Positions 1 through 22,908 of a stretch of 25,021 nt of DNA are shown in pieces. Every line of letters starts with the position of its first letter. The first letter of the stretch is position 1. Position numbers and translations under genes: made by a program. Origin of the DNA: a virus; IMG/VR virus record IMGVR_UViG_3300035698_029021, positions 1 through 25,021 of that record. The stretch is one strand, 5' to 3'. The notes under the pieces are model-generated. The model was not told where the DNA came from and ran no database searches. It saw only the letters and a list, made by a program, of their open reading frames with translations.

Positions 1-4860
<4,860 letters not shown>

Positions 4861-6553: not shown

Positions 6554-6563
6554 GATATATAAG
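6554..6563 (+). promoter_or_regulatory. GATATATA motif (putative late promoter)
   Basis: GATATATAAG lies 45 bases before the ATG at 6599 in the gap after a completed operon. It is one of six exact GATATATA copies, all intergenic. No consistent -35 element is visible upstream. Promoter function is inferred from recurrence and position. Confidence 0.5.
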
Positions 6564-6598: not shown

Positions 6599-9115
6599 AT
6601 GACTTTTTTTCCTGAAAATAAAAAACCAAAAAACGGTTTACCAGTATATAATAGTAGTGGTGAACAAAGAAATTTATCAGATCCGAAATACAGTAAAAAT
6701 TCGGGAATAGAAAACACTAAAAAGGCTCAAGTTAGTAGCACTAGCGATATGTTTTCTACTATAGAAGGAGCATTAGCAAGAGCTGAACAATTAGAATGTA
6801 ACGGATATCACGAGATTTCTTATAATGGAAAAACTGTTTTTATGCCATGTAGTAGTGAAACCTACTATAATATAAGAATGGATCAATTCCAATCTGCTAT
6901 AAATTTTAAATATATTGGAAGTCATCGGGTTCTTTCGTGGGATCAACCATTTAAAAACGTTAATAAAATTAACGGATGGGTTATAGAGGCAGGAGCAGTA
7001 TCAGATAATGACGGGGTTATTTTAAATTCTAACGATATTAAAATAGAATTTAGGTATAGTATAGATGGAAAAAGTTGGTCATTATGGACTGATTCTGGTA
7101 CAGCTTTAACGGGATTTTCTGAAAGTGAAACTCCGAATAATCTTATTTCTTTTTCTGAAATTCAATTAGATCCATCGAATAATTTCTATCCGGAGTTTAG
7201 ATTTACTTCAACTCTAGTTAATGAGGATGGTAGTATATCATACAATTCCAACGAACCTATAGACCCTACTGTATCCATAATCGACCTTGACCTTGACCTA
7301 GATTACGAAGAATCTAACATAGGAGAAAATACAATAATAATTCCACCCAATATAAGATGCGGAGATGAAAAAAATAACAGACCCGTCGTATTTACAGGGG
7401 ATTCTTTTACTTTTGATCCTTATGCAGTAAATCAGGGCATAAATTTATATAAGGATTTAAGTTTAATTGTTAATAAAATGTTTGGCTTTGATGTTAATTA
7501 TTATTCAGTTCAACCACAAGCTAGAGGAAAGGATATTTTATTAAAAGAATATACTATTTTTGATGTAGTTTCTCAAAGTTGTATAAAAGTAGTTATTCCA
7601 GATAATCAGCTTCCAGATAGTAAGGTTCAATATGATCCGTTCGGAATAACATTCGAAGAACCTTTCGAAATTCATATAGACAAAGCATATTTTGAAGAAT
7701 TTTTTGGTAAAAATAGTCAACCTAGAAAAAGAGATATTCTTTATTTTCCTATTACTAGTAGAATTTATGAAATTAATTCTACCTACTTATTTAAAGATTT
7801 TATGAATTCACCGGTATATTTTAAAATAGAATTAAAAAAATACGAACCTAAAAGTAATACTTATTTTAAAGATCCTGCAGATAAGGAAGGTTTAGAAGCT
7901 ATAGGAATAAGTAACGAAGAGTTGTTTAGTGAAGCAATAAAAAACGAGGAGGAAAAAAACTTAAAACCTGCTCAATATCAAACAACTTCTCAAAGAAGAT
8001 CTGAAGATCCTAATCGATCTTATATATTTAACGACCTTTCTATAATAGGCTACGATCTTAATAATAATTGGACCATAATTTTTAATAATTATTACGATCT
8101 AAATTCAAGCTTTATTGACGATAGCGATTTTTCTTATTCCCCTTTTAAATATAAAGAAGCTATAAGATATAAAGCATCTCCTATTTTATTAGAAAAAGAA
8201 GAATTATCTTTTACTAATTGGTTTAGCTTACGTAATTACTACGGATACAGTAAAATGTTAAAAACCTCTTCGGTTCCGTTAAATGTTCAAATAGAATCTA
8301 AGGTTAATGATAAAATAGCATATAGTACTTATCCATATGCTCATAAGCTTGTTGAAAATAAAGGGTATAAATCAAACCCTGATGGATACGTTTCAATAAA
8401 TGGTGATGTTAACCATACTGGGGCTTTTAAGGTAATTGACGTTTTAGATAATTATAGATTTACTGTAAAAGATTATGGTAAAAGCCAGGCTTTAGATACA
8501 ACAGGATGGAGAATGCAAAAGGCTCAATCAAGAAATATGATTGATGGTTTATATTTAGAAGATGATGAAAACTATAAAGGCGTTAGAGTAGATCTTATAC
8601 ATAGTGGGGTAATAGAAAAAGAAATAACTAATTTCTTAGGTTCTGGAAGTTTAGAAATAAAAATTAATGAAATAGAAATAAATACCTCCTTGCAGTTTGA
8701 ACCAGTTATTGACAATTGGTACGGAATAGTTATAAATATTTCTAATAAATATAAGCAGGTTTCAGTTAATATATGGGAAATGTCATACGAGCCAACTAAT
8801 CCTCAAAATCAAAGTAGCGAACTAAAAAAAGTCCACGAATATATAATGACTTTAGATTCTGAAATACTTTTTAATGCCCCAGAAAATATTAATATCGATA
8901 ATAGTAGCCCCTATTACGGAACTAATGAAAATTCTTATAAGATATTTACATCCCCTTTATATTTAAGTAATGTTAGGATATTTAAAAATATGATAGATAT
9001 AGATAACCAATCCACAATACTTAACCAAAATATTATTAGGGATGAACAATTAGCTTATGTTATAGACAATGCTAATCCACCATTAGAACTGAGAAGATTT
9101 GCTAGAAATAGGTAA
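6599..9115 (+). CDS. Neck protein, gp14-like domain with C-terminal lectin-like extension
   Basis: An 838-residue structural protein. Residues about 280-420 resemble the T4 gp14 neck (head-tail connector) family: MFGFDVNYY is followed by an extended strand-rich region and then the conserved block KRDILYFPITSRIYEI from residue 377, comparable to the gp14 'GDLIYFPL...FEI' signature as I recall it. The last 180 or so residues (LEIKINEIEIN, WYGIVINISN, YLSNVRIFKN) look like a LamG/concanavalin-like beta sandwich. T4 gp14 is only about 256 residues, so this would be a strongly enlarged version. Gene order supports the call: in T4 gp14 precedes gp16, gp17 and gp18, and here the terminase and sheath follow. 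The N-terminal 80 residues (including EISYNGKTVFMPC) are unassigned. It starts 45 bases after a GATATATA motif. The LamG label is the least certain part. Confidence 0.55.
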   Translation: MTFFPENKKPKNGLPVYNSSGEQRNLSDPKYSKNSGIENTKKAQVSSTSDMFSTIEGALARAEQLECNGYHEISYNGKTVFMPCSSETYYNIRMDQFQSAINFKYIGSHRVLSWDQPFKNVNKINGWVIEAGAVSDNDGVILNSNDIKIEFRYSIDGKSWSLWTDSGTALTGFSESETPNNLISFSEIQLDPSNNFYPEFRFTSTLVNEDGSISYNSNEPIDPTVSIIDLDLDLDYEESNIGENTIIIPPNIRCGDEKNNRPVVFTGDSFTFDPYAVNQGINLYKDLSLIVNKMFGFDVNYYSVQPQARGKDILLKEYTIFDVVSQSCIKVVIPDNQLPDSKVQYDPFGITFEEPFEIHIDKAYFEEFFGKNSQPRKRDILYFPITSRIYEINSTYLFKDFMNSPVYFKIELKKYEPKSNTYFKDPADKEGLEAIGISNEELFSEAIKNEEEKNLKPAQYQTTSQRRSEDPNRSYIFNDLSIIGYDLNNNWTIIFNNYYDLNSSFIDDSDFSYSPFKYKEAIRYKASPILLEKEELSFTNWFSLRNYYGYSKMLKTSSVPLNVQIESKVNDKIAYSTYPYAHKLVENKGYKSNPDGYVSINGDVNHTGAFKVIDVLDNYRFTVKDYGKSQALDTTGWRMQKAQSRNMIDGLYLEDDENYKGVRVDLIHSGVIEKEITNFLGSGSLEIKINEIEINTSLQFEPVIDNWYGIVINISNKYKQVSVNIWEMSYEPTNPQNQSSELKKVHEYIMTLDSEILFNAPENINIDNSSPYYGTNENSYKIFTSPLYLSNVRIFKNMIDIDNQSTILNQNIIRDEQLAYVIDNANPPLELRRFARNR

Positions 9116-9116
9116 T

Positions 9117-9341
9117 TTATTCTATAGTTTTTGGAAGTTTTAAATCGGTAAGCCCGGTTTCATTTACGTTAAAATTCGAATCTATTAAAGTATATCTAAA
9201 TTTATTAACGTTGTTTGTTTTTCCCTTAGTATATTGTTATTGGTTTTTTTGCTTCTTTAATCCAATCTTCAGATTCGCTATTATTTTTTTTCGAACAGGA
9301 AATAAAAGAAATAAATAAAATGCATTCTTTATAATTTTCAT
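9117..9341 (-). pseudogene. Frameshifted small lipoprotein gene
   Basis: On the minus strand an ATG (9341-9339) opens MKIIKNAFYLF. A second frame then continues FISFISCSKKNN, with Cys codon 9297-9295 in a lipobox-like context, and SEDWIKEAKKPITIY to a TAA at 9228-9226. A third frame continues TKGKTNNVNKFRYTLID and NVNETGLTDLKLPKTIE to a TAA at 9119-9117. Joined, these make one plausible lipoprotein of about 75 codons: charged start, hydrophobic stretch, lipobox, polar linker and a small beta domain. Two frameshifts break it, the first in a T-rich run. Its stop lies one base from the stop of the convergent neck gene, as expected for a formerly real gene in a compact genome. Sequencing error is possible but less likely, since the surrounding frames are intact. 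It would have been exported and anchored in a membrane; such phage lipoproteins can block superinfection, but that role is a guess. Confidence 0.6.
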
Positions 9342-9385
9342 AAGATGTAATTTCTTTTATCTATCTTAATTTTTATTTATTTCTT

Positions 9386-9402
9386 GTTATATAGTTATAT
9401 AC
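9386..9402 (+). promoter_or_regulatory. TATATAG-type promoter-like element
   Basis: GTTATATAGTTATATAC lies 29-45 bases before the ATG at 9431, the spacing seen for the exact GATATATA copies. It differs from the octamer at its first bases, so it is a weaker candidate. Confidence 0.3.
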
Positions 9403-9430
9403 TAAACAATATATAATTAAATTAATAACA

Positions 9431-12034: not shown

Positions 12035-12045
12035 GATATATAAAG
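12035..12045 (+). promoter_or_regulatory. GATATATA motif, distal copy before sheath gene
   Basis: GATATATAAAG lies 94 bases before the sheath ATG, just after the terminase stop. It forms a tandem pair with the copy at 12096, 61 bases downstream, with a weak hairpin between them. Confidence 0.45.
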
Positions 12046-12095: not shown

Positions 12096-12105
12096 GATAT
12101 ATAGA
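12096..12105 (+). promoter_or_regulatory. GATATATA motif, proximal copy before sheath gene
   Basis: GATATATAGA lies 33 bases before the sheath ATG at 12129. The same decamer occurs before the tail-tube gene at 15584, which strengthens both as late promoters. Confidence 0.55.
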
Positions 12106-12128: not shown

Positions 12129-15100
12129 ATGGCAAAAAAAATTAAACTAGATTTATCACAATTTAAAGCTTCCGGAGTTTATACACTGGAATTCGATGCA
12201 GGAGAAAATGTGATATTAACTTCTCAAACTATAAGACTTGTTGTTGGTTTCTCTAACAAGGGACCATTTAACACCCCAGTTTATGTCCCTGATTCAAAAA
12301 CCTCTTTGGCTATTTTTGGAAATATAGACAAAACCCTGGAAAATCAAGGATCTTATTTTCATAGATCCCTTCAAATCTGTTTATCCTCAGGACCGGTTTT
12401 TGCTTTAAATTTATTAAAGCTTAATAGTGACGAAACCAGTTCAACAGTAGATTCAGTTGGATATAAATCATTTTCTGTAGATACTGAAGAACAAAACGGA
12501 ATATTAACTGAAAAACTTTATGCTTCTTTTTATAATAAAGAAAGATTTTGGTTTGCAGATACTGATTATTTTTTAGCAACTCTATCTTTTTCTGATAGTG
12601 GAAAATTATTTAATCTAGTTAATCTTGGGAAAGAAGCATCTAGTGTTATAGTTAGAAAATCTACAGATGCAAATTCTCCAATACTAGGATATGATATTTT
12701 TGCTATAGATTGGTACGGGGCTGAAAATGTCCCTTCCTATGTACACGCATATGATTATATTTCCGATTATTTTGTTGATGTTATATCAGTTTCGGGAGAC
12801 TGGACAGATTATATTACTTTATCTTTAGATCCAAAATGGGGAAATTTCTTTACCGCAAATGGATTTATAAAAAGCCAAATTGATAATTTTTTATCAGATC
12901 CTGATGTTAATATAATAACATCAGTAAGTGGTTCTATACTTCCTGGTTTTGTAGATCTTGGAGGAAATAGCCAATATATAGAAACCTTAATAAATAACCA
13001 AACCGTACAAACAGGATTATTTTGTGCAATTGACGAAAAAGGAATAGAAGGTATATGTAACAACACATCTAGAATAGATTTAGTTGGACATCACTTAATT
13101 GACGAATTAACAGCAGATGGAGATTTAGTAGTACCTAGATTAAATTTCTTAAGTTATGATCAAGCTTTATTAGCAGATTACCAATATAATCAAAATTCCT
13201 ATTTACTTTCTATTACAGGATCTGGAAGTGATCTTAAAGTAGGTAGCTTATTTTCTCCAGAAGGAGCAACGGGTGATAAAGGATTAGAATCTAATTTATT
13301 TCTTCCGTATTCATCTGCTAATTTTGACGGAGGTTATCACTTTATAGAAACCCTACCCTCTGGAGGGACTGGGCCAACAGCGGAAGATTTAATAGAACTA
13401 AAATCGTTTTTGTCTATAAATACTAGCGACGATCAGCATTTTGTTATTGGAACAATCTCTACTATAACAGGAAGCGATAATGTAATAGATCAATTTGCTG
13501 AAGATGATTTAATTAAATTAAAAATAAAAAGTGTAAAGGAAATTAGCGGAGCACTTAGAATAATTTTTAGTCACCCATTAGATACCCCTACTTATAGAGG
13601 ATTAGGTATTATAATAGATCCTGCAAATAGTTCAACTTCAGGAGACGTTACTTTAACAGCATCTTCATACCAATTCGGAAAAAGTGATATTTTAAACAGA
13701 GCTTTAGTACCAACACCTACTGGAGCAACAGGAGCAGCCTTACCAAACCCTTCCTTACCAAAGGCAGAAACCTTAATTGGATATTCTCTTTCTACATTTT
13801 ATTCTGACGCTAAAAAAGAAGAAATAAAAAACGGAGACACTACCCAAAATAATTCAGATCCTTCAGGAAATCAACAATGGTTAACATTAACATCAAGTGT
13901 AGATAGAGACCAATTTGATTTAGTTTATGCAAGGGCATACGTGAATATAAGTAGAGATAACGGAAACGTAGTAACCTCTGGAACAGGATCTTCAGCACAA
14001 ACTAACATTTTTGATTGGGATGCCACTTTTACTAGCAATAATTCGGGGTTTGCATTAACTAGTGACCCTGGTGCTATTAATATAATATCTTCCGAAGGCT
14101 CTATTAATGAAATGATAGATAACGTAACAAGAATAGATTCAGTTTCATTTAATATGAATCCTTTGGTTTATCAAATTTCGGTAGGTGATTTATTAGTTTC
14201 TACTGATAAGGATATATGTACTGATTCTTCGGAAAATCAACAAAGTAGATTAACTAAGGTTCTTTCTGTATCTAAAACTACCTCTATAGATATTGTTAAG
14301 GTTACTACAGCAAGACCAATTGAATATTATCAAACCGGTACATTATCGGTTAGAAAATTTAGACCAATAGAGGAATTTACTAAATCTTTTCAACTTACAT
14401 ATTTAAAAGGTTTTATAATGAGAGCTACGCATAGACCAAACGGAAGTGATGCAAGGATTACTGAAATACTAGATGTTTTATACGATACTAATATTGCTTC
14501 AACATTAGCAACAAAAGACGTTATATCATTCAGATATGTTGTTGATACTTTTTCTGGACAAATATTACCGAATTCTAAATATCAACTTTCTAAACTAGCA
14601 AAAGATAGACAAAAAGCTTTAGCCTTAATTAATGCACCTTCTATTTCCCAGTTTAGAAATTCAGTTGATCCTAGATTTACCGACGCTCCAAGTAACGTAG
14701 ATCCTTTCCCTTCTATAAATACTAAATATATTGTAACTGGAGGAAATCTTTCTTTAAATCCTTCATATACATTTACTTTACCGACAGAAGAACAAGGGGC
14801 TAAATATTGTGGATTTTATACACCTTATTTAGTATTAAGAGAAAGTAATAAAAATATAAAAGTTCCTCCTGCGGCTTTCGTTTCAAATAACTTTGTTCGT
14901 AAATTTTCAAACGGAGAACCTTATTCTATTATAGCGGGAATGAAAAGGGGAGTACTTTCGGGTCCTTCTATAATAGGACTTGAATATGATTTCGATGCTG
15001 GGGATAGAGAAAACCTAGAACCCTTTGGGCTAAATCCTATTATTAAAAAAAGCGGATTAGGTCCTGTTATATTTGGAAATAATACCGCTTATCAACAGGT

Positions 15101-15449
15101 TAATTCAGCATTTAATTTAATCCACGTAAGAGATATATTAATTAGCGTTGAAAATGATGTCGAGGAAATATTATCAAATTATCTATTCGATTTTAACGAG
15201 GATTCTATTAGATTAGAAATTAAAACCCTTGTAGATAATTACTTAGATGGAGTTAGAGCTGGTGGTGGAATTTATACTTATAAAACAACAATGGATTCTT
15301 CTAATAATACTAAGTCTATAATTGATATGAATATGGGAATAATAGACATTAGCGTAGAACCAGCTAGAGGATTACAAAAATTTGTAAATAGAATAACTGT
15401 TACTAGAACGGGTGGAATAGCATCTGGAGGATTTATAAACTTTGTTTAA
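12129..15449 (+). CDS. Contractile tail sheath protein, gp18-like
   Basis: 1106 residues. The N-terminus (ASGVYTLEFDAGENVI, then LVVGFSNKGPFNTPVYV at about 37-53 and SKTSLAIFG) and the C-terminus (HVRDILISVENDVEEIL, a region ending YLDGVRAGGGIYTYK, and GIIDISVEPARGLQKFVNRI) are the conserved parts of contractile sheath proteins. The sheath polymerises around the tube and contracts on host contact. T4 gp18 is 659 residues, so several hundred extra residues sit in the middle, presumably as domains on the outside of the tail. Two short collagen-like pieces occur there: GATGDKG near residue 379 and PTPTGATGAALP near 528. Two GATATATA motifs precede it and a strong terminator follows, so it appears to be its own transcription unit. 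Confidence 0.9.
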   Translation: MAKKIKLDLSQFKASGVYTLEFDAGENVILTSQTIRLVVGFSNKGPFNTPVYVPDSKTSLAIFGNIDKTLENQGSYFHRSLQICLSSGPVFALNLLKLNSDETSSTVDSVGYKSFSVDTEEQNGILTEKLYASFYNKERFWFADTDYFLATLSFSDSGKLFNLVNLGKEASSVIVRKSTDANSPILGYDIFAIDWYGAENVPSYVHAYDYISDYFVDVISVSGDWTDYITLSLDPKWGNFFTANGFIKSQIDNFLSDPDVNIITSVSGSILPGFVDLGGNSQYIETLINNQTVQTGLFCAIDEKGIEGICNNTSRIDLVGHHLIDELTADGDLVVPRLNFLSYDQALLADYQYNQNSYLLSITGSGSDLKVGSLFSPEGATGDKGLESNLFLPYSSANFDGGYHFIETLPSGGTGPTAEDLIELKSFLSINTSDDQHFVIGTISTITGSDNVIDQFAEDDLIKLKIKSVKEISGALRIIFSHPLDTPTYRGLGIIIDPANSSTSGDVTLTASSYQFGKSDILNRALVPTPTGATGAALPNPSLPKAETLIGYSLSTFYSDAKKEEIKNGDTTQNNSDPSGNQQWLTLTSSVDRDQFDLVYARAYVNISRDNGNVVTSGTGSSAQTNIFDWDATFTSNNSGFALTSDPGAINIISSEGSINEMIDNVTRIDSVSFNMNPLVYQISVGDLLVSTDKDICTDSSENQQSRLTKVLSVSKTTSIDIVKVTTARPIEYYQTGTLSVRKFRPIEEFTKSFQLTYLKGFIMRATHRPNGSDARITEILDVLYDTNIASTLATKDVISFRYVVDTFSGQILPNSKYQLSKLAKDRQKALALINAPSISQFRNSVDPRFTDAPSNVDPFPSINTKYIVTGGNLSLNPSYTFTLPTEEQGAKYCGFYTPYLVLRESNKNIKVPPAAFVSNNFVRKFSNGEPYSIIAGMKRGVLSGPSIIGLEYDFDAGDRENLEPFGLNPIIKKSGLGPVIFGNNTAYQQVNSAFNLIHVRDILISVENDVEEILSNYLFDFNEDSIRLEIKTLVDNYLDGVRAGGGIYTYKTTMDSSNNTKSIIDMNMGIIDISVEPARGLQKFVNRITVTRTGGIASGGFINFV

Positions 15450-15457
15450 ATAATTTA

Positions 15458-15483
15458 AAACGATCAGTATTTACTGGTCGTTT
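15458..15483 (+). terminator. Intrinsic terminator after the sheath gene
   Basis: AAACGATCAGT pairs with ACTGGTCGTTT around a four-base loop (11 bp with one G-T wobble), followed by a T-rich tract (ATTATTTTTC). It starts nine bases after the sheath stop codon. Confidence 0.85.
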
Positions 15484-15583: not shown

Positions 15584-15593
15584 GATATATAGA
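15584..15593 (+). promoter_or_regulatory. GATATATA motif before the first tail-tube gene
   Basis: GATATATAGA lies 41 bases before the ATG at 15625, downstream of the sheath terminator. A fresh promoter is needed here for the tube genes to be transcribed separately from the sheath. Confidence 0.55.
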
Positions 15594-16853: not shown

Positions 16854-17951
16854 ATGTCAAATAATTTGTCCCCAGAGGAAATACTAAAATCTAAAGAAAA
16901 ACAAAGTGGGTTTGTTTACGATGACGATATAAAAGAAAAAAATCCTTTAGTTAAAAGAATTGTCGAAAGTAAAGAACAATCTCTTGGAAATATAAATAAT
17001 ATAAAACAAGAAAAAAAACAAATCTTTAATAATCAAGAATCTCCACATAGTCCTACTAATTTGGGAAAGGTAGATACTAAAATTAGAAGAACTGGGGCCG
17101 AACTAGAAACCGGTTGGAAAAATCTTCCATTGGATATGTTACCTTCTCTAGGTTTGTTCTATCCTGATGGATCCCAAATAGCTATAAGACCAGCAAGCGT
17201 TGTAGAAATTAGACATTTTTCTACTATAGACGAAGATGATAAGATTTCAGTCCCAGACCAACTAAATTATATTCTTGATAGATGCATGAGAATGCAATTT
17301 ACTAAATCAGGAGTTGTTGAATATTTAGATCTTATTCAAGAAGATAGGTTTTATTTAATTGTAGCTATAAGAGATCTTACTTTTCTTAAAGGTGAAAATA
17401 AAATAATACTAAATCCTATTAAAAAATGTAAAGCAGAACCTGGATGTCCTTATGTTAACGGATATGAATTAAGAAGTGGATGCTTAGATTTTTTTAAAAT
17501 AGATGAAAAAATAATGGATTATTATTCTCCCTTAAATAAAAGGTTTGAATTTAGATTAAAAGAAAATCCCGAGGATTTAATAATTATGAGTATGCCTACT
17601 ATAGGAACTAAAGAAAAAATAGACGAGTTTTTAATTAAAATGGAATTAAAAAAAAATAAAATAGACTCTTCATTTAAGGAAATTTTACCCTTTATTTTAC
17701 CAGAAAGAAATCAAATAACTGTTGATTTAATATACCAAAAATATAGAGAATCCGATTATTGGACAAAAGAAGAATTTTCCCTTTATTTTATGTTAGCTAA
17801 AGAACTTAAGATTGGTACTAAATTATATTCATCTTTAATTTGCCCTAATTGTAGTCAAGAAATAAATGCTAAAATTCTTTTCAAAGACGGAATCAAATCT
17901 ATTTTCGTTATTTCAGATATCCTTGGACAATTACTTGGAAATAAAATTTAA
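16854..17951 (+). CDS. Baseplate hub protein, T4 gp26-like (T4_baseplate family)
   Basis: 365 residues. The first 80 or so are charged and probably disordered. Residues 91-122 carry the block I associate with the T4 base plate family: LPSLGLFYPDG followed by IRPASVVEIRHF. Then come ILDRCMRM (140-147) and DRFYLIVAIRDLTF (164-177). Cysteines at 192, 198 and 210 and a C-terminal CPNC at 330-333 look like metal-binding or structural positions. T4 gp26 is 208 residues. Such proteins sit in or help assemble the central baseplate hub under the tail tube. Its last 86 bases overlap a small gene in the +1 frame. Confidence 0.65.
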   Translation: MSNNLSPEEILKSKEKQSGFVYDDDIKEKNPLVKRIVESKEQSLGNINNIKQEKKQIFNNQESPHSPTNLGKVDTKIRRTGAELETGWKNLPLDMLPSLGLFYPDGSQIAIRPASVVEIRHFSTIDEDDKISVPDQLNYILDRCMRMQFTKSGVVEYLDLIQEDRFYLIVAIRDLTFLKGENKIILNPIKKCKAEPGCPYVNGYELRSGCLDFFKIDEKIMDYYSPLNKRFEFRLKENPEDLIIMSMPTIGTKEKIDEFLIKMELKKNKIDSSFKEILPFILPERNQITVDLIYQKYRESDYWTKEEFSLYFMLAKELKIGTKLYSSLICPNCSQEINAKILFKDGIKSIFVISDILGQLLGNKI

Positions 17952-18111
17952 TTTATGTAATATTCATTTTGTAGACCCTTTTTGGTTAGAAACATTACCA
18001 TTTTATGAATATCAAATATGGATAGAAAAAATAAATACTTCTACAGAAAATAAAAATAAAAAAAATACTGAAAAAAATGGAAAAAAAGAAGCTTTTAGAT
18101 TCGGAGAATAG
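17866..18111 (+). CDS. Small gene overlapping the gp26-like gene in the +1 frame
   Basis: Downstream of the gp26-like stop (17949-17951) the +1 frame encodes a convincing peptide, VDPFWLETLPFYEYQIWIEK, with a Lys/Asn/Glu-rich tail to the TAG at 18109-18111. The only ATG in this frame is 17866, which puts 28 codons inside the upstream gene. TTG codons at 17923 and 17935 are alternatives, and there is no ATG after the stop. The aromatic FxxLPxYEY pattern resembles the short C-terminal reading frames that phages attach to tail-assembly proteins by ribosomal frameshifting. It could be a separate small protein of about 55-81 residues or a frameshift extension of the gp26-like protein. The sequence alone cannot decide. 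Confidence 0.5.
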   Translation: MLKFFSKTESNLFSLFQISLDNYLEIKFNLCNIHFVDPFWLETLPFYEYQIWIEKINTSTENKNKKNTEKNGKKEAFRFGE

Positions 18112-18118
18112 GGTCTAA

Positions 18119-18128
18119 GATATATAAA
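18119..18128 (+). promoter_or_regulatory. GATATATA motif before the Lys/Asn-rich protein
   Basis: GATATATAAA lies 29 bases before the ATG at 18148 and just after the small overlapping gene. Confidence 0.5.
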
Positions 18129-18147
18129 CTAAAAATATTTATTGAAT

Positions 18148-19752
18148 ATGGCTGGGATATCAGAAAAATTAATTAATGAACTTACTAAAAATATTAAATC
18201 TATAAAAACCAAAATAAATGATATAGATTCTGGTATGGGTGACATAAAAGAAAAAATTTCAGAAACTGAAAATAATAGTAACGTAAATTTAAATAAACTT
18301 AAATCTGATATTATTTCTAATATAGAAAAAATTTCAAAGAATGAAAATAACGGTAACCTAGATTTAGATAAACTTAAATCTGATATTATTTCTAATATAG
18401 AAAAAAACGGCCTAAATTTAAAAGATTTCCCTATTAATGAAATAATTCAAAAAATTCAAAAAAATATAAAGGAAGAACCCCAAGGAACTATAGACGAAGC
18501 TTTAGATAAGTCTATTTTTAATGTTGATTTATCCATAGATGCTTCTGATAAAAGTAGCACTGAATTAATTTTTGATTCTAAAATACTAGAAAGTATTTTT
18601 TCAAACTATGCAAAAAAAATATTATCTTTTGATGCGGAGATTTACAATAATGAAAATAGGGATTTAAATGAAAAAACAGAAGAAAATTCTATAATAAGCG
18701 GAATTCAACCAGAAATAATAAAAATAAATCCAGAGGAAAAAGAAGAAAATAAAACTGACGAAAATAAAGATTTTAGCCAAGATGAATTAATAAGTAATAT
18801 AAGCAAAGAATTTAAAAAAGCTATAGAATTTCCAAATGTAAAAAATCCTATAGAACCCATTATTGATTCTATTAAAAATAAACCACCTGAATTAATAAAA
18901 GAGTTAACACCAGCCGATATTCCCTTTGATACACAAGAAAAAAAAGCTGATACTTTATTTTCTATTTTTAAAAAACCAACGGATGAAAAAATAAATGATA
19001 AAAAAGTAGAGCCAATTTTAGTTAAAAATGTAGTAAGTGATGATATAAAAAAAGAAAATAACGAAGATATTAAATTAGATTTAAGTTTTGATAAATATTT
19101 AGAAAAAAAAGAAAGTGAAACAGATTCGGAAAAATATAAATCTTTAGAAAAATCTAATAATGAAAATCTACTTAAAAAAGAGGATTTTAATAAACCCGTA
19201 GATGAAACAATTAACCCTATTTACGAAAAAGAAAAAATAAATAACGAAGAACTTTTAAAAAACGTTAATATAAACGATACTATAAATAATATTACTGAAA
19301 TAATAAAGGAAGTTTCGTTTGAATCCTTACCTAAAGATAAGCCAGAAATAATAAAAAATACAGATCCGGATTTATTAGAACCTTTAAATAATGAAACTGT
19401 AGTTAAAGAAATGCAAACTTTAATTAATGAAACTTCTTATAATAATAATAGCAATATAGATGAAATAATAAAAAGTAATGAAACCCTATCTTCTAAATTT
19501 GATGAACTTATAAAAATTATTTCAGAATCTAATAAAAATATAAGCATCCCTGATATTTCAGATAAAGAAAAACCAGAAAGAAAAAAATCTCCTCAATTAA
19601 AAAGAAAGGATAAAGAAAATGTAGTAAAGCAAACCTCTGATGTTTACGGACCCGAAATAATAAAAATCCTTGGACAAATTTCAAAAACCCTTTCGAGCCC
19701 ACTTAAAGTTTCTGATAGTAAACCATATAGACCAAATAGTAAATTTAATTAA
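18148..19752 (+). CDS. Lys/Asn/Glu-rich, probably disordered tail-region protein
   Basis: 535 residues from the ATG at 18148. A TTG two codons upstream is in frame, but MAG(I/L) matches the starts of three other genes here. Residues 37-61 and 62-86 are a 25-residue duplication (ISETENNSN and ISKNENNGN, each ending KLKSDIISNIEK) with heptad-like character. The middle is dominated by Glu, Lys, Asn and Asp with few aromatics, so it is largely disordered or coiled. The end, ILGQISKTLSSPL then PYRPNSKFN, is more ordered. It sits directly after baseplate and tube genes and has its own GATATATA motif. A tail-length, scaffold or internal tail component is plausible. It lacks the long membrane-like helices usual in tape measures, so I do not name it. 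Confidence 0.75.
   Translation: MAGISEKLINELTKNIKSIKTKINDIDSGMGDIKEKISETENNSNVNLNKLKSDIISNIEKISKNENNGNLDLDKLKSDIISNIEKNGLNLKDFPINEIIQKIQKNIKEEPQGTIDEALDKSIFNVDLSIDASDKSSTELIFDSKILESIFSNYAKKILSFDAEIYNNENRDLNEKTEENSIISGIQPEIIKINPEEKEENKTDENKDFSQDELISNISKEFKKAIEFPNVKNPIEPIIDSIKNKPPELIKELTPADIPFDTQEKKADTLFSIFKKPTDEKINDKKVEPILVKNVVSDDIKKENNEDIKLDLSFDKYLEKKESETDSEKYKSLEKSNNENLLKKEDFNKPVDETINPIYEKEKINNEELLKNVNINDTINNITEIIKEVSFESLPKDKPEIIKNTDPDLLEPLNNETVVKEMQTLINETSYNNNSNIDEIIKSNETLSSKFDELIKIISESNKNISIPDISDKEKPERKKSPQLKRKDKENVVKQTSDVYGPEIIKILGQISKTLSSPLKVSDSKPYRPNSKFN
18256..18405 (+). repeat. Two tandem 75-bp (25-codon) repeats
   Basis: Bases 18256-18330 and 18331-18405 encode the same 25-residue helix-forming unit. 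A stretch of about 39 bases (18293-18331 and 18368-18406) is identical at DNA level. Confidence 0.85.
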
Positions 19753-19813
19753 TTTATAAATAATCGTTGCTACCTTTATTTTTTTATCTACATTTACATT
19801 AATAAATACCCAA

Positions 19814-19824
19814 TAGATATATGG
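19814..19824 (+). promoter_or_regulatory. TAGATATATGG promoter-like element before the deaminase gene
   Basis: TAGATATATGG matches the sheath promoter context TAGATATATAGA except at one base. It overlaps the ATG at 19821, making that ATG unlikely as a start if the element is a promoter. It would give a leader of roughly 110 nucleotides before the ATG at 19944. Confidence 0.35.
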
Positions 19825-19943
19825 AAAGTAACATCTGTATCCCTTCTCTCTTTTTTAGCGAGGCGGGACAAATAGCGAAAAAATCTTCTTGGATCTTTTT
19901 AAAAAATGCAAAATGTGCTGTACCTTTTAGTAATTTAAACGAA

Positions 19944-20375
19944 ATGAAATCTAAAATTGGTCCGAAACAAATTGAAAAAGATCTCATATATTTAGAGATG
20001 TCACAGATATGGGCAAAAAATTCTCATTGTAACCGAAGAAAAGTAGGATGCTTGATAGTAAAAAATCAATCTATAATATCGGATGGCTATAACGGAACCC
20101 CTTCAGGGTTTAGCAATCCGTGCGAAGATTGTAACGATATTACTTATTCTTCCGTATTACATGCAGAAGCTAACGCAATTACCAAATTGGCAAAGGGTAC
20201 ACAAACATCAGAGGGATCTACCTTATATGTTACCCTTTCACCATGTTACGAATGTGCCAAATTAATAATCCAATCAGGAATAAGTAGGGTTGTATTCCAG
20301 GAATTGTACCGTAAAACTGATTCCCTTTCACTTTTAGTTAAAGGCGGGGTAGAATTAGTTAGAATAAAAATTTAA
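19944..20375 (+). CDS. dCMP/cytidine deaminase-family enzyme
   Basis: 143 residues from the ATG at 19944. The zinc-dependent deaminase core is clear: HAE at 73-75 (H73 zinc ligand, E75 proton shuttle) and SPCYEC at 99-104 (C101 and C104 zinc ligands), plus the dCMP-deaminase-like GYNGTPSG at 48-55. C60 and C63 (NPCEDC) may bind a second structural zinc. dCMP deaminase makes dUMP for thymidylate synthesis during phage replication and is common in T4-like phages. The frame stays open upstream to an ATG at 19821 (184 residues). That extension (including SEAGQIAKKSSWIFLKN) is not part of the usual fold, and its ATG overlaps a promoter-like element, so I prefer 19944. It is followed nine bases later by the sigma factor gene. 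Confidence 0.85.
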   Translation: MKSKIGPKQIEKDLIYLEMSQIWAKNSHCNRRKVGCLIVKNQSIISDGYNGTPSGFSNPCEDCNDITYSSVLHAEANAITKLAKGTQTSEGSTLYVTLSPCYECAKLIIQSGISRVVFQELYRKTDSLSLLVKGGVELVRIKI

Positions 20376-20383
20376 CATAACAT

Positions 20384-20980
20384 ATGATTAAGGAAAAAGA
20401 CATTCAAATAATTGCGACTAATTTTATAAAAGATAAAAGTGATAAAAATTTTAAATATTTATATGAAAGACTAAGACCGGGTATAATAAACCATTGCTAT
20501 GGTATATTAAAAGAAAAAAGTTTAGCTGAAGATGCTTTCCTTAATTGTATGGCAAAAATATGGCAAAAAGTTGATCAATATAACATAGACCGAGGTAATT
20601 TTTCTACTTGGTGTTATAATATAGCTAAAAATGAATCCTTACTAATAATAAAGGCCCGTAAAAAATATAAAAGTAAAACCGAAAGCGACGTAGAATTTAT
20701 AGCCGCTTCCAGTATGAAAAATCTTCCTGCTGAACCTGATCCATTATGGGCATTTGCAAACGATGAAGGTGATACTATTGATGAAATATATAATAATATT
20801 ATAGAAGAAATAAAAAATCTCCCTCCGTTATATAAAAATATAATGATAGATAGAGAAATAAATAGAATGAAATATAAAGATATCGCTGAAAAATACGATA
20901 TTAAAAAACGTTCTATAGCAACAAGAATACGTAGGGCTAGGAGTCAAATACGTAAAAAAATAAGAACCTCTAATAGATAA
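20384..20980 (+). CDS. ECF-like sigma-70 family RNA polymerase sigma factor
   Basis: 198 residues with the two-domain layout of a compact sigma factor. Region 2 spans about 22-95: FKYLYERLRPGI, the core-binding helix AEDAFLNCMAKIWQKVDQY and the -10-recognising NFSTWCYNIAKNE at 72-84. Region 4 spans about 137-193: LPPLYKNIMIDREINRMKYK then the helix-turn-helix DIAEKYDIKKRSIATRIRRA. Phages use such factors to redirect host RNA polymerase; T4 gp55 does so for late genes. Here the obvious candidate target is the GATATATA motif before the sheath, tube, neck and other late genes. It lies between the deaminase and a small membrane protein gene. An alternative is recognition of early or middle promoters outside the window. 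Confidence 0.85.
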   Translation: MIKEKDIQIIATNFIKDKSDKNFKYLYERLRPGIINHCYGILKEKSLAEDAFLNCMAKIWQKVDQYNIDRGNFSTWCYNIAKNESLLIIKARKKYKSKTESDVEFIAASSMKNLPAEPDPLWAFANDEGDTIDEIYNNIIEEIKNLPPLYKNIMIDREINRMKYKDIAEKYDIKKRSIATRIRRARSQIRKKIRTSNR

Positions 20981-22269: not shown

Positions 22270-22281
22270 AGCGAAACTTTA

Positions 22282-22302
22282 CATATATACAAACTATAAA
22301 TA
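22282..22302 (+). promoter_or_regulatory. ATATATA and TATAAATA promoter-like pair
   Basis: CATATATACAAAC begins 39 bases before the ATG at 22321, and TATAAATA (22295-22302), identical to the T4 late promoter consensus, lies 26 bases before it. Either could serve as a -10 element. In AT-rich DNA the second match may be chance. Confidence 0.35.
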
Positions 22303-22850: not shown

Positions 22851-22882
22851 AAAAAGCACTTTTTTATAAAAGTGCTTTTTTT
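22851..22882 (+). terminator. Strong intrinsic terminator
   Basis: AAAAAGCACTTTT (22851-22863) pairs perfectly with AAAAGTGCTTTTT (22868-22880) around a TTAT loop, giving 13 bp and a seven-T tract at 22876-22882. The A run on the 5' side could also let it act on the other strand. Confidence 0.93.
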
Positions 22883-22898
22883 GTATATAAAGAAGTCT

Positions 22899-22908
22899 GA
22901 TATATAGT
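22899..22908 (+). promoter_or_regulatory. GATATATA motif before the membrane-protein operon
   Basis: GATATATAGT lies 34 bases before the ATG at 22933, directly after the terminator at 22851. Confidence 0.5.

Follow-up and report, generated by a model that had tools for sequence, protein, structure and literature searches.

The occurrence of a compact sigma factor gene together with repeated copies of the octamer GATATATA in a 25-kb fragment of viral DNA that encodes a terminase, sheath and tube of T4 type (25,021 nucleotides; henceforth the window) raises the question of whether the octamer is a promoter and, if so, which factor recognizes it. The original prediction combined the two into a dedicated late-transcription system, with a phage sigma of ECF-like shape paired to a -10-only promoter as a variation on the gp55 theme. 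Our analysis retains the dedicated -10-only late promoter and the gp55 theme, and parts with the ECF-like sigma as the partner. We consider it likely that GATATATA serves as the -10 box of late promoters in a clade of huge T4-related phages and is read by a miniature version of gp55 (mini-gp55), with the ECF-like sigma being a separate factor; the promoter was recognized correctly and its partner probably wrongly.

The six exact copies of GATATATA originally listed for the window (at 6554, 12035, 12096, 15584, 18119 and 22899; Table 1) are all found on its plus strand and 0/6 lie inside a called gene, as had been claimed; the minus strand has zero exact copies. The base after the octamer is A or G at 6/6 sites, and five of the copies do lie 29-45 nt 5' of a start codon, the measured distances from the first motif base being 45, 33, 41, 29 and 34 nt. 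The remaining copy, at 12035, is the distal member of a tandem pair and is 94 nt from the start codon. The distance of 29 nt for the 18119 copy refers to the ATG at 18148, with 23 nt separating it from the alternative TTG at 18142. An 81-aa ORF (17866-18111) overlapping the end of a 365-aa gene in this region is conserved in the syntenic nearest relative, L007, with 78% identity; judging by this conservation it is probably a real gene, and the true gap 5' of the 18119 site would therefore be short.

Table 1. Features of the window discussed in the text.
Feature	Position	Strand	Evidence or context
GATATATA	6554..6561	+	Before 838-aa gp14-like neck gene at 6599 (37 nt gap from motif end)
GATATATA, distal tandem copy before sheath gene	12035..12042	+	Relatives' second peak 70-90 nt from starts
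GATATATA, proximal copy	12096..12103	+	Before tail sheath gene (12129-15449)
Terminator-like hairpin	15458..15483	+	Between sheath and tube genes
GATATATA	15584..15591	+	Before tail tube gene 15625 (tube by PHROG 45), 3' of terminator-like hairpin
GATATATA	18119..18126	+	Before 536-aa gene (TTG 18142 or ATG 18148)
Region upstream of cd	19753..19820	+	TTTTTTTATC then directly TACATTTAC
dCMP deaminase (cd)	19821..20375	+	Pfam PF00383 1.3e-24; upstream neighbour of sigma gene
ECF-like sigma factor, 198 aa, regions 2 and 4	20384..20980	+	Pfam Sigma70_r2 2e-10, r4_2 6e-9; PHROG 1740
GAAAC-N16-CTATAA, candidate two-box promoter	22273..22299	+	Of 169-aa gene 22321
Terminator-like hairpin	22851..22880	+	Ahead of 22899 promoter
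GATATATA	22899..22906	+	Before 102-aa membrane-like gene 22933, 3' of terminator-like hairpin

The raw count of the octamer is unremarkable: shuffles of the whole window give an expectation of 3.7 copies on both strands, and at least six are reached in 18 of 100 shuffles. Since such shuffles are blind to the intergenic restriction of the motif, we relied instead on intergenic Markov models and on relatives. Models of order 1-3, trained on the 1,276 intergenic bases of the window (81% A+T), produced on average 0.17-0.48 copies, with six being reached in 0/4,000 trials. The octamer thus exceeds shuffled AT-rich intergenic DNA ahead of late genes, the comparison on which the original prediction had staked itself. 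A generic sigma-70 promoter scan found sites no more numerous than in shuffles. The 6554 site is kept before the orthologous gene in the contigs G006 (G006_518, a gp14 match), G013 and G014, and the 12096 site before the sheath gene is conserved in the same three. The 18119 and 22899 sites have counterparts in L007, respectively at 1713, 5' of the orthologous gene, and at 6812, 5' of an ORF at 6835.

To place these sites in a wider setting, we used 109 loci from viral contigs, found with the sigma and the terminase as search queries, and added the window itself along with six loci that copy parts of it (116 sequences, 1.83 Mb; genes called by a simple longest-ORF rule). In this set GATATATA occurs between genes 318 times in sense and 0 times in antisense orientation, these being counts of non-independent events as related loci share ancestry; only 39 copies fall in coding DNA, although it makes up 95% of the sequence. 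It is also the top de novo upstream 8-mer (139 regions sense vs 2 antisense), and its distance to the start is mostly 15-35 nt, with a minor group at 75-90 nt. Removal of near-duplicates leaves 107 sites, 107/107 of them sense, whose profile begins with a T-rich segment (-11 to -2) leading into the octamer, which is followed by A, G or C (rarely T) and finally by A-rich DNA. No -35 element was detected at these 107 sites, with no upstream column exceeding 0.2 bit, which bears out the claim of a -10-only promoter; in 162 upstream stretches GRAAC is found in 8 and TTTTTATC in 0. The strand bias holds over whole contigs (e.g. 24:0 and 21:0 sense:antisense). Intergenic copies before a gene start account for 56/75 of those in G006 (373 kb) and 42/55 in G013 (319 kb), and for only 3/41 in G011 (246 kb). 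No paper on GATATATA as a phage promoter was found in the literature search.

The genes that follow the octamer point to its role. When the genes of G006, G013 and G014 were labelled with T4 proteins and a box was counted if it lay at most 110 nt upstream, GATATATA was found directly before 13 of the 31 structural matches, including neck gp14, sheath, portal, prohead protease and baseplate gp25, vs none of the 46 matches to replication or metabolism proteins (Fisher p=1e-6). The late-gene placement proposed for the window thus extends to these three related contigs, and the octamer persists in front of orthologous genes even though protein identity is often no higher than 45-90%. Some replication genes may nonetheless be co-transcribed from upstream GATATATA boxes, and the late-only claim is therefore limited to direct promoters. 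On these sequence comparisons, GATATATA is taken to be a genuine clade-wide late promoter and a variant form of the late octamer known from T4.

The relationship to T4 becomes apparent in the octamers enriched in 12 genomes (G006, G013, G014, G011, LR745206, LR756500, LR756502, LR756504, Lak-A2, PAU, PTm1 and T4, with 400 kb of each LR and Lak genome covered), which all fit NATA-N-ATA (the NATANATA family), the genomes being gp55-bearing throughout. The form GATATATA is seen in LR756500 (24:4 sense:antisense), G006 (51:13), G013 (37:6) and G014 (36:6), AATAAATA in G011 (34:5) and Lak (53:14), TATACATA in PAU (36 sense, 1 antisense), NATACATA in PTm1 and TATAAATA in T4; for AATATATA of LR745206, LR756502 and LR756504 the antisense count is high (LR745206 108:61), making this weaker evidence. 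GATATATA differs from the T4 octamer at 2/8 positions, with T to G at -13 and A to T at -9. The available part of the T4 review (PMC2988020) describes late promoters without a conserved -35, with A at -13 at nine sites and changes there tolerated. It also cites T4-type late promoters inferred in silico from sequence in KVP40, 44RR, S-PM2 and Aeh1, the -13/-12 positions being variable in Aeh1; for these octamers the same part of the review reports none with T or C substituted at -9, a change that is seen in the huge-phage clade and in PAU.

Among the sigma factors found, the only phage sigma common to 12/12 records is gp55. T4 proteins detected a homologue in G006 and G013 by phmmer (5e-8 and 4e-6), and a gp55 profile, to which some of the 12 records themselves contributed, in all of them; 19/20 contigs of the window's clade likewise encode one. 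In the huge phages it is a protein of 118-136 aa (about 119 aa in the clade) that corresponds to the portion of T4 gp55 forming sigma region 2. A search with the mini-gp55 of L007 alone matched it to PHROG 234, 'late sigma transcription factor', at 4e-14. When the structure predicted for this protein (pLDDT 84) was compared with the PDB, the best match was T4 gp55 as seen in 7d7c, a gp55-dependent open complex (probability 1.00, TM 0.69, E 0.009). In L007, gp55 starts about 2.3 kb beyond the counterpart of the window's end, and synteny suggests that the window's own phage encodes it just past that end; the gene, being outside the window, was thus invisible to the original prediction.

In T4 gp55, the sliding-clamp epitope is borne by a C-terminal extension that the mini-gp55 lacks, and a search of the examined records for the gp45 clamp with Pfam PF02916 gave a match in T4 only. 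Hence, in these phages gp45-type activation must be different or too diverged to be recognized. A homologue of the clamp-loader (gp44) was found by labelling with T4 proteins, while a phmmer search with T4 gp33 returned zero matches. Short acidic and hydrophobic C-terminal tails (..DDEIYSI, ..EDNSYNI, ..GQGIHSL) are observed on the mini-gp55 of L117, L118, L120, G011 and the clade, and possibly represent a reduced clamp-binding tip. There were suggestive signs that residues in region 2.4 of gp55 covary with the octamer, but ancestry confounds this pattern and we do not claim it.

The compact sigma encoded in the window is indeed ECF-like, with regions 2 and 4 confirmed by Pfam and fold: it has no region 1.1 or 3, is about 200 aa long as in the ECF class, is closest by sequence to SigW among PDB chains, and has sigmaE and SigW among its best folds. 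That this factor recognizes GATATATA as a late promoter of the -10-only kind could be argued from its conservation in 19/20 clade contigs, its location in the structural gene cluster and its region 2, potentially able to recognize a -10 box. However, within the clade its co-occurrence with gp55 cannot separate the two as readers; only PAU, PTm1 and T4 do so, and a search for the ECF-like sigma found it absent from all three, which nevertheless have homologous octamers. Region 4 of sigma factors is expected to read the -35 box, and its strong conservation in the ECF-like sigma is at odds with a motif lacking any -35 signal. Further, the G011 orthologue (34-36% identical) goes with AATAAATA and not GATATATA. 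With a gp55 homologue available as the alternative in 12/12 records, we regard the pairing with the ECF-like sigma as unlikely.

The third phage sigma, an RpoD-like protein of about 300 aa, is even less probable as the reader of GATATATA. It is encoded in 3/3 large clade contigs (G006:61049, G013:6747, G014:280319), and its MRQFKIS start resembles Bacteroidota RpoD; but it was not found in LR745206, LR756502, G011, PTm1 or T4, all with the octamer family, and such sigmas normally require a second element. We assign the lowest probability to GATATATA being no promoter at all, and instead an AT-rich by-product of composition or a leader or translation signal. The A+T-richness of intergenic DNA is in keeping with this, as is the enrichment of other AT-rich words, such as AGATAAATAT, close to starts; yet the complete intergenic strand asymmetry, the two distance peaks, the placement of the octamer after terminator-like hairpins, its retention before orthologues despite diverged flanks and its gene-class specificity all speak against it. 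The octamer is best understood as a mini-gp55 promoter because gp55 is present in all the genomes and the same kind of octamer is shared by the ECF-less PAU, PTm1 and T4; we infer that GATATATA is most probably bound by the minimal gp55. Host core RNA polymerase equipped with this sigma of the gp55 family, about 119 aa long and confined to region 2, would open DNA at GATATATA, using no -35, and transcription from it would cover the head, neck, sheath, tube, baseplate and other late genes. This would amount to a T4-like late system with an octamer altered at -13 and -9.

The ECF-like sigma would then be a separate factor, more likely serving another promoter class, with cd as its probable operon partner. 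In most relatives, a TTATATTTG/TTACATTTG box is found immediately 5' of cd, often with a T-tract or TTTTATC farther upstream; the window's cd upstream region does not keep this host-like two-box spacing. Because most relatives have the TAnnTTTG box at this position, the ECF-like sigma is probably an early product. A second promoter class of the clade has the form ATTTTTTTATC[CT]G, 13-15 nt, TTAnnTTT[GA]C, with a -7 box matching the Bacteroidota housekeeping promoter TAnnTTTG (PMC6847099). The third class consists of GRAAC (G[AG]AAC), 16-17 nt and CTATAA(T): GRAAC..TATAAT at spacing 17-18 occurs in 15 gene families sense vs 1 antisense, with none at spacings 6-16. For instance, GRAAC-N16/17-CTATAAT precedes gp55 in several relatives and, with GAAAT, the topoisomerase gp52 in G006, and the two-box type also occurs before the orthologues of gene 22321 in G006, G013, G014 and at other loci.

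The reader of the GRAAC class could be either the ECF-like sigma or the RpoD-like sigma of about 300 aa. Its assignment to the ECF-like sigma as that factor's own promoter was attractive, given an ECF-type -35 (AAC), but sits uneasily with the distribution: a motif of this type is strongest in PAU (19:1), which has a 364-aa RpoD-like sigma and no ECF-like factor, and weak or absent in the ECF-bearing LR745206 and G011. Dyads based on ACTA were a first guess, replaced after an unbiased scan. Tentatively, one might envisage a three-step sigma cascade on the core polymerase of the host, wherein host-type promoters (TTTTTATC..TAnnTTTG) drive cd and the ECF-like sigma, the latter acts on GRAAC-N16/17-CTATAAT (gp55 and replication genes, gp52 among them), and mini-gp55 on GATATATA; we consider this scheme less likely than not. 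PAU (JQ362498) also displays a strong two-box motif, TGAAACTT..GTAGTATAAT, which is not of the host TAnnTTTG type and probably marks a phage sigma class; the dyad TGAAA-N16-AGTA is found in 31 upstream regions sense and 1 antisense. The host of PAU is a Sphingobacterium (PMC3738902). Those of the window's clade are probably Bacteroidota, going by promoter style, the RpoD-like sigma and relatives.

Comparison with known systems brings out what is shared and what has changed. Like the T4 late promoters, GATATATA is a single -10 type octamer with no -35, followed by AT-rich DNA and situated before structural genes, and the clade combines a gp55-family region-2 sigma with a T4-type terminase, portal, protease and capsid. 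Unlike in T4, the clade gp55 has only 118-119 aa, being devoid of the C-terminal linker and the clamp epitope, the gp45 clamp is not recognizable by Pfam, and the phages carry genes for two additional sigma factors. The window's ECF-like sigma resembles SigW and sigmaE in size, fold and the possession of region 2 plus region 4; it differs from them in being phage-encoded, in having no identified anti-sigma gene and in adjoining a dCMP deaminase gene. Two sigma types and a gp33 orthologue have already been noted for the 'group 2' jumbo phages, Lak included (PMC7824862); the available part of that account does not name gp55 and gives no late promoter motif or factor-promoter pairing.

For an uncultured group of huge phages, these findings supply a concrete signal of late genes, and one homologous promoter-factor pair would link these, Lak and the Bacteroidota jumbo phages to T4. 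With little beyond sigma region 2, the clade gp55 homologues are attractive as minimal sigma factors. The natural octamer series, with T, A or G at -13 and A, C or T at -9, offers a route to the DNA-reading residues of gp55, whose identity in T4 is called speculative in the available part of the review (PMC2988020). The window also illustrates how reading a single fragment can match a motif with the wrong factor.

Certain other features were observed in passing. In G014, a recurrent leader, AACCAATTAAAACAAA, lies close to start codons and is perhaps a translation signal (CAATTAAA occurs 20 times in sense and 0 in antisense). The window has an unusually long A+T-rich gap of 315 nt without a called gene (9116-9430), and at 376-4860 it encodes a 1,494-aa collagen-like protein with long repeats of the G-T-S-G type, which is probably a fibre.
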